This document shows positions 40,281 through 45,844 of a DNA stretch of 64,000 nt, one piece after another (within the stretch, counting starts at the first letter, position 1; each line of letters begins with the position of its first letter). The stretch covers positions 1 to 64,000 of the forward strand of contig CALMXZ010000007.1 of NCBI GenBank assembly GCA_937873495.1, in the 5' to 3' direction. The notes beneath the pieces were generated by a model, which saw only the letters and a list, made by a program, of their open reading frames with translations, was not told where the DNA came from and searched no databases. This DNA comes from an uncultured Trueperaceae bacterium (lineage in GTDB: Bacteria > Deinococcota > Deinococci > Deinococcales > Trueperaceae). A program made the position numbers and the translations under genes.

Positions 40281-42197
40281 ATGACGACCCCTACCTCCAC
40301 AGCCAAGCGACACCTGCCGCTCACCCTGATCGCGCTCGGCGTGGTCTTCGGCGACATCGGCACCAGCCCCCTGTACGCCATGCGGGAAGCGTTCGCCGAG
40401 ACGCATGGCCTGGCGGTCGAGCCCGAAACCGTGCTCGGAGTGCTCTCGCTCGTCCTCTGGTCGCTCTTCCTCATCGTCTCCGTGAAGTACGCCGTCATCG
40501 CCATGCGAGCGGACCGCAACGGGGAGGGCGGGATCCTCATCCTGACGTCGCTCGTCACGCCGCTGCGAGGACGCCCGGTCGGAGCACGGCGCGTGTTCGT
40601 GCTGCTCGGGCTCTTCGGAACGGCCCTGCTGGTAGGCGACGGCATGATCACGCCGTCCATCACGGTGCTGAGCGCCGTGGAAGGCCTCGCCATCGTGGCC
40701 CCACGCCTCGAGGCGTTCATGCTGCCCATCGCCATCGCCGTCCTGGTGGTCTTGTTCGTCGCGCAGCGCCGCGGCACGGACGCCGTCGGCAAGGTGTTCG
40801 GTCCGGTCATGCTCACGTGGTTCGTGGTGATCGCGGCGCTCGGCGTAGCGAGCGTAGTCAGGGAGCCCGGCGTCCTCGCGGCGCTCGACCCCCGCCACGC
40901 CGCCACCTTCTTCGCTCACGAGCGTTGGAAGGCGTTCATCGTCCTCGGCTCCGTGTTCCTCGCCGTCACGGGTGGGGAGGCGCTCTACGCCGACATCGGC
41001 CACGTCGGCAAGCGCGCCGCGCGCATCGGGTGGTTCGCCGTCGCGCTGCCTGCCCTGCTACTCAACTACGCCGGCCAGGGCGCGCTCCTGCTCGGCTCCC
41101 CCGCCGCCACCGGCAACCCCTTCTTCCGCCTCGCGCCGGCCTGGGCGCTCGCTCCGCTCGTCGGCCTCGCCACGCTGGCCGCCATCATCGCCTCCCAGGC
41201 CCTCATCTCGGGAGTCTTCTCGCTGACCATGCAGGCCGTTCGCCTCGGCTACCTGCCGCGCCTCAAGGTCGATCACACGTCCGCCAAGGCCTTCGGGCAG
41301 GTCTACGTCGGCGGCGTCAACTGGCTCCTGCTGTGCGCGTGCGTGGCGCTCGTCCTGGCGTTCGGCTCCTCGAGCGACCTGGCGGCGGCCTACGGCGTCG
41401 CCGTCACGGCGACCATGCTCATCACCTCGATACTCCTGGCCGTCGTCGCGCGCGAAGTCTGGCACTGGAGCCTCCCGGCCGTCGCCGCCTCCATGGGCCT
41501 GTTCCTCCTGATCGACACGGCATTCCTCGGCGCCAACCTCGCGAAGGTCTTGCACGGCGGCTGGTTCCCTCTCGTCGTTGGAGCACTCGTGTTCACGGTC
41601 ATGACGACGTGGCGGCGCGGGCGCCAGGAACTACGCGCGCGGTTCGGCTCCAGCGAACTGCCCATCGACCGCTTCCTCGACAGCATCCGGGCGGCACCGC
41701 CGCGGCGCGTGCCAGGGACGGCCGTGGTCATGCACGGCGTCAAGGGCGTCGTCCCTCCCGTGCTCCTTGCCAACCTGCGCCACAACCACGTCCTGCATCA
41801 GACGGTGGTGATGCTCACGGTGGAGACGGCAGAGGAGCCGCGGGTGCTGCGGGCCGAGCGAACCACCGTGAAGGTGTACGGCGACGGCTTCTTCCAGGTG
41901 GTGCTCCGGTTCGGGTTCATGGAACGCGCGAACGTCCCGGCGGCGCTCGCCGACCTGGTACACCCCGACCTCAACCTCGACCCCGACGTGACCACGTACT
42001 TCCTGGGGCGCGAGCTGGTAGTGCCGGCCGAACGCCGCCGCCCGCCGTCGCAAAGCGGTCGGAGGACCGGACGCCCGCTGCCGCTCTGGCGCAAACGGCT
42101 GTTCGCGCTCCTGGCGAGGAACGCCGCCAACGCGGCCTACTACTACTCGCTCCCTTCCGAGCACGTCATCGAGGTGGGCGTGCAGGTGGAGCTCTAG
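40281..42197 (+). CDS. kup: KUP-family potassium uptake permease
   Basis: The ATG at 40281 gives 638 residues and places GVVFGDIGTSPLYAMRE near residue 26, as in other Kup proteins; an in-frame GTG at 40254 would add nine residues but lies directly on a TAGAGT box (40248-40253). About twelve membrane segments occupy the first 440 residues, including VGDGMITPSITVLSAVEG and GGEALYADIGHVGKRAARIGW, both family hallmarks. The C-terminal 180 residues are cytosolic. Kup imports K+ with protons. No c-di-AMP riboswitch is visible in the short upstream region. Confidence 0.93.
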   Translation: MTTPTSTAKRHLPLTLIALGVVFGDIGTSPLYAMREAFAETHGLAVEPETVLGVLSLVLWSLFLIVSVKYAVIAMRADRNGEGGILILTSLVTPLRGRPVGARRVFVLLGLFGTALLVGDGMITPSITVLSAVEGLAIVAPRLEAFMLPIAIAVLVVLFVAQRRGTDAVGKVFGPVMLTWFVVIAALGVASVVREPGVLAALDPRHAATFFAHERWKAFIVLGSVFLAVTGGEALYADIGHVGKRAARIGWFAVALPALLLNYAGQGALLLGSPAATGNPFFRLAPAWALAPLVGLATLAAIIASQALISGVFSLTMQAVRLGYLPRLKVDHTSAKAFGQVYVGGVNWLLLCACVALVLAFGSSSDLAAAYGVAVTATMLITSILLAVVAREVWHWSLPAVAASMGLFLLIDTAFLGANLAKVLHGGWFPLVVGALVFTVMTTWRRGRQELRARFGSSELPIDRFLDSIRAAPPRRVPGTAVVMHGVKGVVPPVLLANLRHNHVLHQTVVMLTVETAEEPRVLRAERTTVKVYGDGFFQVVLRFGFMERANVPAALADLVHPDLNLDPDVTTYFLGRELVVPAERRRPPSQSGRRTGRPLPLWRKRLFALLARNAANAAYYYSLPSEHVIEVGVQVEL

Positions 42198-42210
42198 CGG
42201 GAGCCGCCGG

Positions 42211-42239
42211 TTGACTCCCTCTTACCCTCCTGCTAAGCT
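42211..42239 (+). promoter_or_regulatory. Promoter of the AspRS leader
   Basis: TTGACT (42211-42216) and TAAGCT (42234-42239) with a 17-bp spacer; the leader ATG follows 7 nt later, so the mRNA is nearly leaderless. Confidence 0.8.
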
Positions 42240-42246
42240 TCCGCGC

Positions 42247-42309
42247 ATGACGAACGCGCTCGCCCTGCGCACGGACGATAATTCGGATTCGAGGCCACTC
42301 GGGGCGTAG
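42247..42309 (+). CDS. 20-residue Asp/Asn-codon leader peptide of the AspRS gene
   Basis: The frame encodes MTNALALRTDDNSDSRPLGA and stops at 42307-42309, 25 nt before a strong attenuator. Four of seven residues in the central block TDDNSDS are Asp or Asn (GAC GAT AAT ... GAT). This is the layout of amino-acid biosynthetic leaders: when Asp-tRNA or Asn-tRNA is scarce the ribosome pauses in the block. CTCGGGG at 42298-42304, just inside the peptide end, is complementary to CCCCGAG at 42336-42342, giving a candidate antiterminator. The regulated gene charges exactly these tRNAs. Confidence 0.78.
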   Translation: MTNALALRTDDNSDSRPLGA

Positions 42310-42334
42310 GCGTCGTAACGGATCACTGCACTTA

Positions 42335-42364
42335 CCCCCGAGGAGCGCTCCTCGGGGGTTTCTC
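42335..42364 (+). terminator. Attenuator upstream of the AspRS gene
   Basis: CCCCCGAGGAGC followed directly by GCTCCTCGGGGG (42335-42358) forms a perfect hairpin, then TTTCTCGTT. It lies between the leader peptide and the synthetase start at 42451. Confidence 0.85.
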
Positions 42365-42450
42365 GTTATGGGCTCGAAGCCGAGCCCGAACGGCCGCCAC
42401 CAAGGCGAAGCAGTGACCCGGGAAGCAGTAGGACCCAAGGAGGCGGTCGG

Positions 42451-43779
42451 ATGTCGGGCAACGCAGAAGCGGTCGGAGAAGGCGAGACGCATAAGGGCGC
42501 CGCCACGAACAGGGTGCTGGTGCGGGACCTGGCCGCGCACGTCGACGAGCGCGTGCAGGTGGCCGGCTGGATCCTCACCCGCCGCGACCTCGGTGGCATC
42601 CGCTTCCTCGTCCTGCGCGATCGCACCGGCGTCGTCCAGTGCGTGCTGGAAGGCATCGACGTGCCGTTGCACGAGAGCTGCGTGCGTGTGACGGGCAGGG
42701 TGGTGAAGCAGCCGCGCGCCCCGGGCGGCATCGAGGTGCTGGCGTCCGGCCTCGAGATCGTCAGCGAGGCCACCGTCCCGCCACCGGTCGAGCTGGCCAA
42801 GGAGGAGTGGCAGGCCAACCCCGACACGCTCCTGCAGTACCGCCACGTGACCGTGCGCAGCCCGAAGGCGCGCGCCGTCCTCAAGGTCGAGGCGGAGCTC
42901 GTGCGCAGCTTCAGGGCGTACCTCGACGCGCAGGAGTTCACGGAGATCTTCACGCCCAAGCTCGTGTCGGCCGGCGCCGAGGGCGGGGCGAACCTGTTCG
43001 AGGTCGACTACTACGGGCGCCGCGCCTACCTAGCGCAGTCACCGCAGCTCTACAAGCAGATCATGGTCGGCGTCTTCGAGCGCGTGTACGAGACCGCGCC
43101 CGTCTACCGCGCCGAGAAGAGCCACACGCACCGCCACCTCTCCGAGTACCTGTCGCTCGACGTCGAGTTCGGCTTCATCGAGGACGACGGCGACGTCATG
43201 GACCTCGAGGAGGCCCTCCTCAAGAGCATGCTGACCAGCGTGGCCGAGCGCTGCGGCCGCGAGCTCGAGGCGCTCGGCGCCGTGCTACCGAACACGAGCG
43301 TGGCCTTCCCGCGCATCGAGTTGTTGAGCGCGCGCGAACTGGTGGCGGAGCGTTACGGGCACGTGTCCGGCGGCAAGGACCTCGACCCGGAGGCCGAGCG
43401 CCTCGTCGGCCGCTGGGCGAAGGAGGAGCACGACTCGGATTTCGTGTTCGTCACCCACTACCCGCAGGCGGCCAGACCGTTCTATACGTACCCGCTGGAC
43501 GGCGGTCTGACCCGCGGTCTCGACCTGCTCTTCCGCGGCGTCGAGATCACGTCCGGCGGGCAACGCGTGCATCGGCCGGAGGTGCTCGTCGAGGAGCTGC
43601 GCAAGCGCAATATGGACCCCGAGGCCTTCGGGGACTACCTGGAGGTGTTCCGGCACGGCATGCCGCCGCACGGCGGCTTCGCCATCGGTGCCGAGCGGCT
43701 CACCGCGCTCCTGCTCGGCATCCACAACGTGCGCTTCGCGCGCGCCTTCCCGCGGGACGCCCAGCGCCTCACGCCATGA
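42451..43779 (+). CDS. aspS: Archaeal-type aspartyl-tRNA synthetase, probably non-discriminating
   Basis: A 442-residue class II synthetase, shorter than bacterial AspRS (about 580) because it lacks the bacterial GAD insertion. An N-terminal OB fold (VQVAGWILTRRDLGGIRFLVLRDRTG) is followed by motif 2 (YRAEKSHTHRHLSEYLSLDVE) and motif 3 (GGFAIGAERLTALLLG). AAGGAGG precedes the ATG. Deinococcus and Thermus carry such an AspRS2, which charges both tRNA-Asp and tRNA-Asn with Asp; Asp-tRNA-Asn is then amidated by GatCAB. The leader peptide containing both Asp and Asn codons fits this dual specificity. Discrimination cannot be proved from sequence alone. Confidence 0.9.
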   Translation: MSGNAEAVGEGETHKGAATNRVLVRDLAAHVDERVQVAGWILTRRDLGGIRFLVLRDRTGVVQCVLEGIDVPLHESCVRVTGRVVKQPRAPGGIEVLASGLEIVSEATVPPPVELAKEEWQANPDTLLQYRHVTVRSPKARAVLKVEAELVRSFRAYLDAQEFTEIFTPKLVSAGAEGGANLFEVDYYGRRAYLAQSPQLYKQIMVGVFERVYETAPVYRAEKSHTHRHLSEYLSLDVEFGFIEDDGDVMDLEEALLKSMLTSVAERCGRELEALGAVLPNTSVAFPRIELLSARELVAERYGHVSGGKDLDPEAERLVGRWAKEEHDSDFVFVTHYPQAARPFYTYPLDGGLTRGLDLLFRGVEITSGGQRVHRPEVLVEELRKRNMDPEAFGDYLEVFRHGMPPHGGFAIGAERLTALLLGIHNVRFARAFPRDAQRLTP

Positions 43780-43932
43780 ACCCCGCGCCGAGCGGCGCGG
43801 CGAACCGGCCGCGCCCGCCCACGCAGCCGGACGCCCACGAGTGGAACCTTTGACGGCGGATTGACGCGGTTCTGCTAGCCTGATCGAGTAGCAGGACGGC
43901 TCGCTTCGACGCCGCCAGGAGGAGAACAGACC

Positions 43933-44580
43933 ATGCAACGTAGGACCCGTCTAGTCGTGCTCGTCGCAACCTTGGCCGCGCTCGTCGTGCTCGGCGCCTG
44001 CGCCCCCACAACGGAGTCCGCGGAGCAGCCCGCTGCGTGCGTGTCCAGCCCGATACCGACGGTGGCGGTGGTCGACTTCGAGAACACCTCCAGCCAGGGC
44101 GGCGGCGTGAGCGTCGTAGGCGTCGAGGAGGCCGCCACCGCGCGCCTCATCACCCTCCTCAAGGAGTCCGGCTGTTACGTGGTCGTGGAGCGCAGCGAGC
44201 TGCAGACCCTCATCGAGAAGCAGGGCATCGAGTCGCTCGACCCCGTCGGCCTCGCCAAGGCCGCCGGCGCGGGCTACGTCGTGACGGGCACGGTCACGCG
44301 CGCCACGGTCGCTCGACCAGGCGGCAGCCTCTTCGGCGTGACGCTCGGCCAGACCAAGGCCCAGATCGAGGTCGACGTGCGCGCCACCGACATCATCACT
44401 GGCGTCGTCGTGGTCTCCATGAAGGGCGCCGGCGAGGCGAGCAGCCCGAACATCAACATCAACAACGTACCGCTGGCCGGCAACGTCAGGTACGACGACC
44501 CGACCGTCGGCCCGCTCTTCGCCCAGGCCGCCAACTCGGCCATCAGCCAAGTGGTGGCGGCGCTGCGCGCCAAGTTCTAA
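43933..44580 (+). CDS. CsgG-like lipoprotein
   Basis: A 215-residue protein with a lipoprotein signal (LAALVVLGAC, Cys at about 23). The body matches the CsgG/FlgT-N-like fold: TVAVVDFENTS, the ATARLITLLKESGCYVVVERSELQTLIEKQ helix, and AKAAGAGYVVTGTVTRA. CsgG itself is the curli export pore, but many short relatives outside curli operons have unknown roles. No csg partners are adjacent. GGAGGAG lies before the ATG. Followed by a strong terminator. Confidence 0.75.
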   Translation: MQRRTRLVVLVATLAALVVLGACAPTTESAEQPAACVSSPIPTVAVVDFENTSSQGGGVSVVGVEEAATARLITLLKESGCYVVVERSELQTLIEKQGIESLDPVGLAKAAGAGYVVTGTVTRATVARPGGSLFGVTLGQTKAQIEVDVRATDIITGVVVVSMKGAGEASSPNININNVPLAGNVRYDDPTVGPLFAQAANSAISQVVAALRAKF

Positions 44581-44601
44581 GCGCCTCGACCGCGCGCAAG
44601 G

Positions 44602-44645
44602 AGCGGGGCCGACCCCCAAGCCTAACGGCAAGGGTCGGCCCCGCT
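44602..44645. terminator. Bidirectional terminator between CsgG-like and M20 genes
   Basis: Perfect 14-bp stem AGCGGGGCCGACCC / GGGTCGGCCCCGCT with a 16-nt loop; CTTCGTT follows on the plus strand and CTTGCGC on the minus strand. It separates convergent genes. Confidence 0.85.
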
Positions 44646-44668
44646 CTTCGTTACTCGCCGGAACTCCG

Positions 44669-45844
44669 TCAGTCTGCGCGCATGAGGTCGGCCACGCCGG
44701 AGGCCAGGACGCTGACGGCCACCTCAAGGCCGCGCTCGTCGAGGTCGAAGCGGGGGTGGTGGTGGGCCCACGACGAGTCGGGGCCGGAGCTGGTGCCGAC
44801 GAAGAAGTAGCACCCGCGCGCCTTGGCCAGCCAGAGGGCCATGTCGTCGCCGCCCATGATGGGCGCCTGCAGCGTCACGTTGTCCGGGCCGACGACGCGG
44901 GCGGCCACCTGGCGGAAGCGCTCGACGGACTCGGGGTCGTTGACGACCGCCGGCGTTCCCGGGATCCACTCCTCCTGCAGCGAGCACCTTGCCAGCGTGC
45001 ACGACGCCGCGCCGACCGCGAGGATGCGCTCACGCAGGCGCGCGCGCGTGGCCGCGTCGAAGGTGCGCAACGTGCCCTTGAGTTCCACCTCCTCCGGGAT
45101 GATGTTGAAGGCGGTACCGCCGTGGAAGCTCGTGATGCTGATGACCGACTGGTCGATCGGGTCCGTCTCGCGGCTCACGAGCGTCTGCAGCGCGAGGACG
45201 AGTTGCGACGCCGCCACGATCGGGTCGATGCAGACGTGCGGGTAGGCGGCGTGGCCGCCCCGGCCCCTCACGACGAACCGGAACGAGTCTGTCGCGGCCA
45301 TGGCCGGCCCCTCGCGCACGGCGACGGTGCCGAGCGGGTGGTTGCTGGAGAGGTGCAGGCCGATGACGAGGTCGATGGCGAGTCCATCGAGCGCCCCGTC
45401 GTCCAGCATCGCCTGCGCCCCCCGCACGACCTCCTCGGCCGGTTGGAACACGAACACGACGCGGCCGGCCAACTGCGCGGCGCGCGCCAGCACGATCTCG
45501 ACGACGCTGAGGAGCACGGCCACGTGGCCGTCGTGGCCGCAAGCGTGCATCTTCCCCGCCACGGTCGAGCGGTACTCGACCCCCTTCTCCTCCGGCACGG
45601 GCAGCGCGTCCATGTCGGCGCGCGCCAGCACCGTCGGGCCTGGCCGACCCGTGTCGAACACGGCCACCACCCCAGTGCCGCCGACGCCCTCGCGCGGCTC
45701 CAGCCCGAGTTCGCGCAAGCGAGCGGCGATGACGCCCATGGTGCGGCGCTCCTCGAAGGCGATCTCGGGGTGGCGGTGCAGGTCGCGGCGGACGGCGACC
45801 GTGCGCTCCTGCAGCGCTCTTGCCTGCTCGGCGATGGTGGGCAT
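44669..45844 (-). CDS. M20-family metallo-amidohydrolase (amino-acylase/hippurate hydrolase type)
   Basis: The ATG at 45844 with GTAGGAGAG upstream gives 391 residues (MPTIAEQARALQERTVAVRR). Metal and catalytic residues of the M20D group are present: DLHRHPE (21-27), ARADMDALP (75-82), HACGHDGH (100-107), QPAEE, and GGDDMALW near the C-terminus. A dimerisation domain lies at about 185-300 (GRGGHAAYPH). Such enzymes remove acyl groups from N-acyl amino acids or similar amides. The substrate is not determined. No signal peptide. Confidence 0.9.
   Translation of the reverse strand: MPTIAEQARALQERTVAVRRDLHRHPEIAFEERRTMGVIAARLRELGLEPREGVGGTGVVAVFDTGRPGPTVLARADMDALPVPEEKGVEYRSTVAGKMHACGHDGHVAVLLSVVEIVLARAAQLAGRVVFVFQPAEEVVRGAQAMLDDGALDGLAIDLVIGLHLSSNHPLGTVAVREGPAMAATDSFRFVVRGRGGHAAYPHVCIDPIVAASQLVLALQTLVSRETDPIDQSVISITSFHGGTAFNIIPEEVELKGTLRTFDAATRARLRERILAVGAASCTLARCSLQEEWIPGTPAVVNDPESVERFRQVAARVVGPDNVTLQAPIMGGDDMALWLAKARGCYFFVGTSSGPDSSWAHHHPRFDLDERGLEVAVSVLASGVADLMRAD

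Follow-up and report, generated by a model that had tools for sequence, protein, structure and literature searches.

The aspS2 gene in the DNA analysed here, a 64,000-nt stretch from an uncultured Trueperaceae bacterium (the window), is preceded by a short leader region that is very probably a ribosome-mediated transcription attenuator of aspS2, reading charged tRNA-Asn and usually also charged tRNA-Asp. The chief signal appears to be Asn-tRNA(Asn), and the arrangement resembles feedback control of tRNA-dependent Asn synthesis by its end product. Below we set out the parts of the leader in the window, their conservation and codon usage across the class, the competing RNA pairings in relation to ribosome position, and the likeness of the leader to known attenuators.

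Leader elements upstream of aspS2

The order upstream of aspS2 in the window is promoter, ORF, hairpin (Table 1). The first-pass annotation had described a promoter, a near-leaderless 20-residue peptide, an alternative pairing and a terminator in this region, and all of their coordinates hold in the window sequence. The leader ATG lies 7 nt past the -10 element; in the window's ORF list the leader frame opens at an upstream TTG, with ATG 42247 lying inside it. We infer that transcription starts at the leader ATG or within 1-2 nt of it, which would make the message near-leaderless.

Table 1. Positions of the leader elements and of aspS2 in the window
Feature	Position (strand)	Description	Basis or remark
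Promoter	42211..42239 (+)	-35 TTGACT 42211-42216, 17-nt spacer, -10 TAAGCT 42234-42239	Sequence; relatives alike
Leader peptide ORF, MTNALALRTDDNSDSRPLGA	42247..42309 (+)	ATG 42247-42249, 20 codons, stop TAG 42307-42309	ORF and ATG placement kept in relatives
Putative sensing codons	42274..42288 (+)	GAC GAT AAT TCG GAT (D D N S D)	AAT is the conserved Asn codon
Region 2, CTCGGGG	42298..42304 (+)	Predicted antiterminator 5' arm, overlaps last leader codons	Pairs with 42336-42342
Region 3, terminator 5' arm	42334..42344 (+)	CCCCGAG 42336-42342 common to antiterminator and terminator	
Region 4, terminator 3' arm	42349..42359 (+)	Followed by T-rich tract TTCTCGTT 42360-42367	
aspS2, archaeal-type AspRS	42451..43779 (+)	NCBIfam aspartate--tRNA(Asn) ligase (aspS_nondisc)	Profile scores; PDB relatives

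The terminator (42334-42359) consists of 11 pairs and a loop of 4, followed by the T-rich tract (terminator search: 1 found, 0.2 expected). Region 2 is perfectly complementary to the CCCCGAG stretch of region 3 and matches part of the terminator 3' arm in sequence. Compared with shuffles, a 69-nt segment with both regions has a better fold (z -2.9). The same holds for the 55-nt antiterminator form, which reaches as far as the terminator 5' arm and folds at -25.3 kcal/mol (z -3.0); once the 3' arm is included, the terminator outcompetes the antiterminator in the fold. The 7-bp region 2/3 pairing is by itself weak evidence, because 4% of shuffles equal it in the window sequence alone, and it is conservation in relatives that places the leader elements beyond chance. 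A pairing this moderately unusual would suit a plain promoter and terminator, or the terminator of the upstream transporter gene, accompanied by a meaningless short ORF. That reading is highly improbable, however: the terminator sits downstream of the promoter, and the layout, Asn codons, codon bias and geometry described below are kept beside aspS2 despite differing upstream sequence. The window fold also contains a hairpin within the leader ORF, a possible candidate for a 1:2 pausing hairpin.

Right behind the leader stop, GCGTC(G) at 42310-42315 is well conserved in Trueperaceae and has no obvious pairing partner. We considered and rejected a pairing of GACGA, from the Asp codons, with this post-stop GCGTC: it shows no covariation, and by eye one relative (G016) has GCGTC beside GAAGAT.

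The protein encoded by aspS2 scores above both curated cut-offs (TIGR00458, 391 bits against 368; NF003483, 550 bits against 353), and its closest PDB relative is Thermus thermophilus AspRS2 (1N9W/3KFU). On these matches, the product is probably a non-discriminating AspRS, which would feed GatCAB. We take His and Pro at two positions of the AspRS anticodon domain to be linked to tRNA-Asn acceptance; the Pro is kept, and at the His position, where most other relatives do have His, the window genus and G009 have Leu and G017 has Tyr. The stretch of the anticodon-binding domain with Leu for His reads GWILTRRDLGG in the window genus versus GWVHNRRDLGG in most relatives.

In T. thermophilus and D. 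radiodurans, an additional AspRS together with GatCAB makes Asn on tRNA(Asn) (PMC4206432). GatB was found in the window genome, and 45 of 46 good genomes have it. The window genome also carries a bacterial-type AspRS1, downstream of an apparent hisS, and we saw no leader in this genome before either hisS-aspS1 or gatB. Two asparagine-synthase-like proteins of the window genome score above the TIGR01536 cut-off, so AspRS2 is possibly not the sole Asn route there; of 61 relatives, just 19 genomes contain a match that exceeds this cut-off. Both of these asparagine-synthase-like amidotransferases lie at G000:C5:44696-56453 (L227), about 8 kb apart, and they also match XrtA-type models below cut-off.

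Conservation and codon usage across the class

We compared the regions upstream of AspRS2 in 28 Trueperaceae loci, in Thermales and others, in a systematic set and in six more loci; the families in the sample were Trueperaceae (f1), f2, f3 and f4 (Thermales) and f5, and none of the genomes or named loci was identified as Deinococcus. In 93 complete leaders, drawn from five families, the promoter is followed in the same order by a near-leaderless short ORF, region 2 and a terminator-like hairpin, and essentially all usable genomes of the class have this layout ahead of AspRS2. The sole clear absence in the class sample is G037, with no leader within 420 nt upstream of AspRS2. Promoters of the relatives read TTGAC/TANNNT with a spacing of 17-18, and their ATG lies 7-11 nt past the -10 element. 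A pattern search within Trueperaceae showed the leader motif GGGGC-stop-CCCCGAGG to be essentially restricted to aspS2, and none of the other matches inspected was a second attenuator with the same motif; they were chance-like, in unrelated sequence. The first-pass annotation had staked its proposal on the Asp/Asn block and the hairpins being conserved among relatives, and the conservation found here strongly favours it.

The leader peptides are otherwise unlike one another and range from 7 to 37 aa, yet Asn occurs in 92 of the 93, most of which have Asp too. The lone leader without Asn, that of G005, comes from the same genus as the window and retains Asp. In f3 and f4, all 57 leaders contain Asn and 37 contain Asp, with the Asn placed 1-3 residues before the stop in nearly all of them; Thermus-like leaders carry NN and little else in common. 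Examples are MTHLAFSDDNSGSGRLGA and MTPTARRTDDNRDARALGA in Trueperaceae, MRAAARNFNDNNDRLRAA in f2, MKCFFNNSADDDN in f5, and MRPRLLNNG, MRLPQGNDA, MLRADDNL, MLWLANC and MRGLLNNDR in f3/f4. In G008 the hairpins are retained and the D/N block is lost, with a single Asn and no Asp.

Codon choice differs between the leaders and the gene downstream. AAT, the rare Asn codon in GC-rich Trueperaceae, accounts for 19 of 26 leader Asn codons versus 2 of 90 in aspS2 (Trueperaceae with GC3 > 0.7; odds ratio 119, p 4e-14, a value overstated because relatives are not independent), and the bias recurs across genera. For Asp, the codon GAT makes up 14 of 45 codons in leaders versus 31 of 443 in aspS2 in the same set of genomes.

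The conservation of AAT and of the DDN nucleotides is unusual for GC-rich genomes, and GATAAT is similar to a -10 element, so the GAYGAYAAT block might be an RNA or DNA element, such as a -10-like pause signal, rather than a run of codons. We consider this very unlikely: several Trueperaceae, like Thermales, use AAC for the Asn or have its codon in unlike sequence (CTTAACAACGG, GTTAATTCC, AATAACGAC), Asn stays in frame, and it is the residues alone that are common to the leaders.

Competing pairings, ribosome position and the probable signal

To compare the region 2/3 pairing among Trueperaceae, we anchored the test on the stop codon and the terminator C-run, finding 166 of 175 cells paired, a result equalled or bettered by 2 of 2000 shuffles. 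RNAalifold recovers the 7-bp helix, with double changes in two of its seven pairs. In G012, where the pairing is TTGGGGT/ACCCCAA and the terminator arm ACCTTGGGGTT, regions 2, 3 and 4 vary jointly; in G002, where it is GCTTCGGG/CCCGAAGC, region 4 again varies along with regions 2 and 3. For the Thermales antiterminator there was no covariation to test, and the comparison is uninformative because this helix is nearly all G-C and inseparable from base composition.

We then placed the ribosome on each leader, assuming on general grounds that its leading edge lies 15 nt past the first base in the P site. The region 2/3 helix is found in 84 leaders, with at least 5 pairs in 83 of them. A ribosome at the stop codon fully covers region 2 in 83 of the 84, and 4 nt or more of region 2 stay free in 74 when the A site is occupied by an Asn codon; in the window leader, a stall at the Asn codon frees all 7 nt. 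Most of the ten exceptions are leaders ending in DDN[SLPC]-stop, where Asp stalls would expose more. In several Meiothermus-like leaders (ending in DDNS-stop), stalling at the Asn codon uncovers just 1-4 nt of region 2 and stalling at the Asp codons uncovers more, so that Asp, or both residues, would be favoured as the signal there.

In the mechanism that we propose, RNA polymerase would begin at or beside the leader ATG, and a ribosome would load onto the near-leaderless message. When Asn-tRNA(Asn) is plentiful, the ribosome would proceed to the stop codon and cover region 2, leaving regions 3 and 4 to form the terminator and aspS2 off. When Asn-tRNA(Asn) is scarce, the ribosome would stall on the Asp/Asn codons, its leading edge not yet at region 2. 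Region 2 would then be free to pair with region 3, the terminator would be blocked, and aspS2 would be transcribed. AspRS2 would charge tRNA(Asn) with Asp, and GatCAB would amidate the resulting Asp-tRNA(Asn) to Asn-tRNA(Asn), the end product that closes the loop. Since the AspRS2 product becomes Asn-tRNA(Asn) only on amidation, and Asp-tRNA(Asn) itself would not register as Asn, the sensor would report completion of the pathway. The attenuation first proposed for this leader appears largely right, judging from the conserved layout, codons, pairings and geometry.

The proposal that the leader senses Asp and Asn jointly stands in part. Asp codons are a frequent co-signal, but it is Asn and not Asp that is near-invariant, and AspRS1 has no such leader, so the leader is better read as Asn feedback on the step with which tRNA-dependent Asn synthesis begins; we infer on these grounds that Asn is dominant. 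The same attenuator might instead respond equally to Asp-tRNA(Asp) and Asn-tRNA(Asn), a possibility that overlaps the main reading without excluding it and to which we give somewhat less than an even chance. Asp makes up 10-30% of leader residues by family, too common for noise, GAT is over-used in the leaders, leaders of Trueperaceae and f5 most often have DDN as their core, and in Meiothermus-like leaders the Asp codons are the better placed to expose region 2. Equal weight for Asp is, however, hard to square with the 20 of 57 f3/f4 leaders that have none, all of which contain Asn, or with the lack of such a leader before the AspRS1 gene of the window genome. Taking Asn as the chief signal, we put at about even the chance of a broader proposal, that of a class-wide Asn sensor in which leaders of down to 7-10 codons would report GatCAB transamidation and feed back on the first enzyme, with a readout that would be mostly transcriptional and changed, perhaps to a translational one, in Thermus.

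The possible change in Thermus concerns the end of the hairpin. The T-rich tract past it has a mean of 6.0-7.7 T per 10 nt in f1, f3, f5 and most of f4. The mean is 2.7 in g20, a Thermus-like genus in which the U-tract is lost and the hairpin adjoins the aspS2 ribosome-binding site (e.g., L131, L134, L139). Given this loss, Thermus may use another readout. The T-rich tract is lost in G041 too.

Related leaders and known attenuators

Searching the window genome for the near-leaderless promoter pattern, we found 13 sites, compared with 1 for the reversed control. Six of the 13 open short leader ORFs, before aspS2, ilvB, leuC, pheS, leuS and DAHP synthase (the last five named from reading of their translations, not from a family search). 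These sister leaders (G000 L185, L187, L193, L195, L196) comprise MTVSLSGAITSWGLLITSSRGRAG at ilvB, MRSPLASESFTR at pheS and METAYPGTTFDYLSLRGRTRSG at leuS, together with those at leuC and DAHP synthase. Some have fitting codons, with four Tyr codons before DAHP synthase, and most have terminator-like hairpins; the codons likely to be regulated look rare (CTA for Leu at leuS and ilvB, TAT for Tyr at DAHP synthase). The sister leaders are probably a set of leader-peptide attenuators, and with six leader ORFs, leader-peptide control seems general in the window genome.

T-boxes often control aspS and asnS in other phyla, and T-box-like leaders do occur upstream of AspRS2 in Ktedonobacterales. That the aspS2 leader RNA itself is a T-box or riboswitch, binding tRNA or a metabolite, is nevertheless exceedingly improbable, given that most of it is coding and that a T-box would need a longer leader. 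An Rfam search of positions 41000-45000 of the window gave no match at E up to 1, including to T-box RF00230, and a search of the sister leaders in the window genome likewise gave none.

Outside the class, five Ktedonobacterales loci (L084, L086, L090, L093, L096) have a D/N-rich, Shine-Dalgarno-led short ORF behind a T-box-like leader, upstream of AspRS2, and a Chloroflexota MAG (L092) has a D/N-rich short ORF ahead of AspRS2. Such ORFs (e.g., MPMESDDGNDDDDNNTINILGST) lie within about 330 nt before AspRS2, and their 3' end can pair with a later segment. The Ktedonobacterales T-box was scored in two loci, with E of about 1e-10 and 3e-12, below the Rfam gathering score. Tandem control by T-box and leader peptide is possible in these Ktedonobacterales and Chloroflexota leaders, and the Ktedonobacterales leader looks like an independent origin.

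Ribosome-mediated attenuators are known in enterobacteria, of the trp, his, leu, thr, ilv, pheA and pheST type. The aspS2 leader resembles them in having, ahead of the matching gene, an ORF that contains codons of the regulated amino acid, in the predicted covering of region 2 by a ribosome at the stop codon, and in its mutually exclusive antiterminator and terminator. It differs in using Asn (with Asp), in being near-leaderless, in an ORF that shrinks to 7-10 codons in Thermales, in having no established 1:2 pause hairpin, and in its target, a non-discriminating AspRS acting in Asn synthesis on tRNA.

Leader-peptide attenuators have been predicted in Actinobacteria at trp, trpS, leuS and ilvB, and they too pair leader ORFs with a terminator and antiterminator at biosynthetic and tRNA-synthetase genes; these are in another phylum, however, and the text of that survey has no aspS, asnS or Asp/Asn terms (PMC1262725). 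The Firmicutes hisS/hisZ leader peptides, identified from premature-terminator analysis, similarly put a tRNA-synthetase gene under leader-peptide transcription attenuation outside the classical groups, but the amino acid is histidine, and the paper's text mentions none of aspS, aspartyl, asparagine, Thermus or Deinococcus (PMC2965389). T-box leaders of aspS and asnS (RF00230) control the same kind of gene by the aminoacylation of tRNA-Asp/Asn; in contrast to the aspS2 leader, a T-box binds tRNA directly and needs no leader ORF. Our search of the open-access literature found no described Asp/Asn leader peptide. We know of no described ribosome-mediated attenuator that senses asparagine, and of none in Deinococcota. 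The aspS2 leader would belong to a known class of switch, and what looks new is the amino acid, the near-leaderless and very short ORFs, and the loss of the U-tract in Thermus.

Together, these features suggest a specific, testable feedback control for tRNA-dependent asparagine synthesis. The class includes Thermus, which serves as a laboratory model and whose AspRS2 structure is solved. Such control would add a new amino acid to those known from ribosome-mediated attenuation, and a phylum in which we know of no described case. The near-leaderless leader ORFs would be useful for work on transcription-translation coupling when the ribosome loads on a 5'-terminal ATG, and the Thermus variant without a U-tract may provide a natural comparison of readouts.
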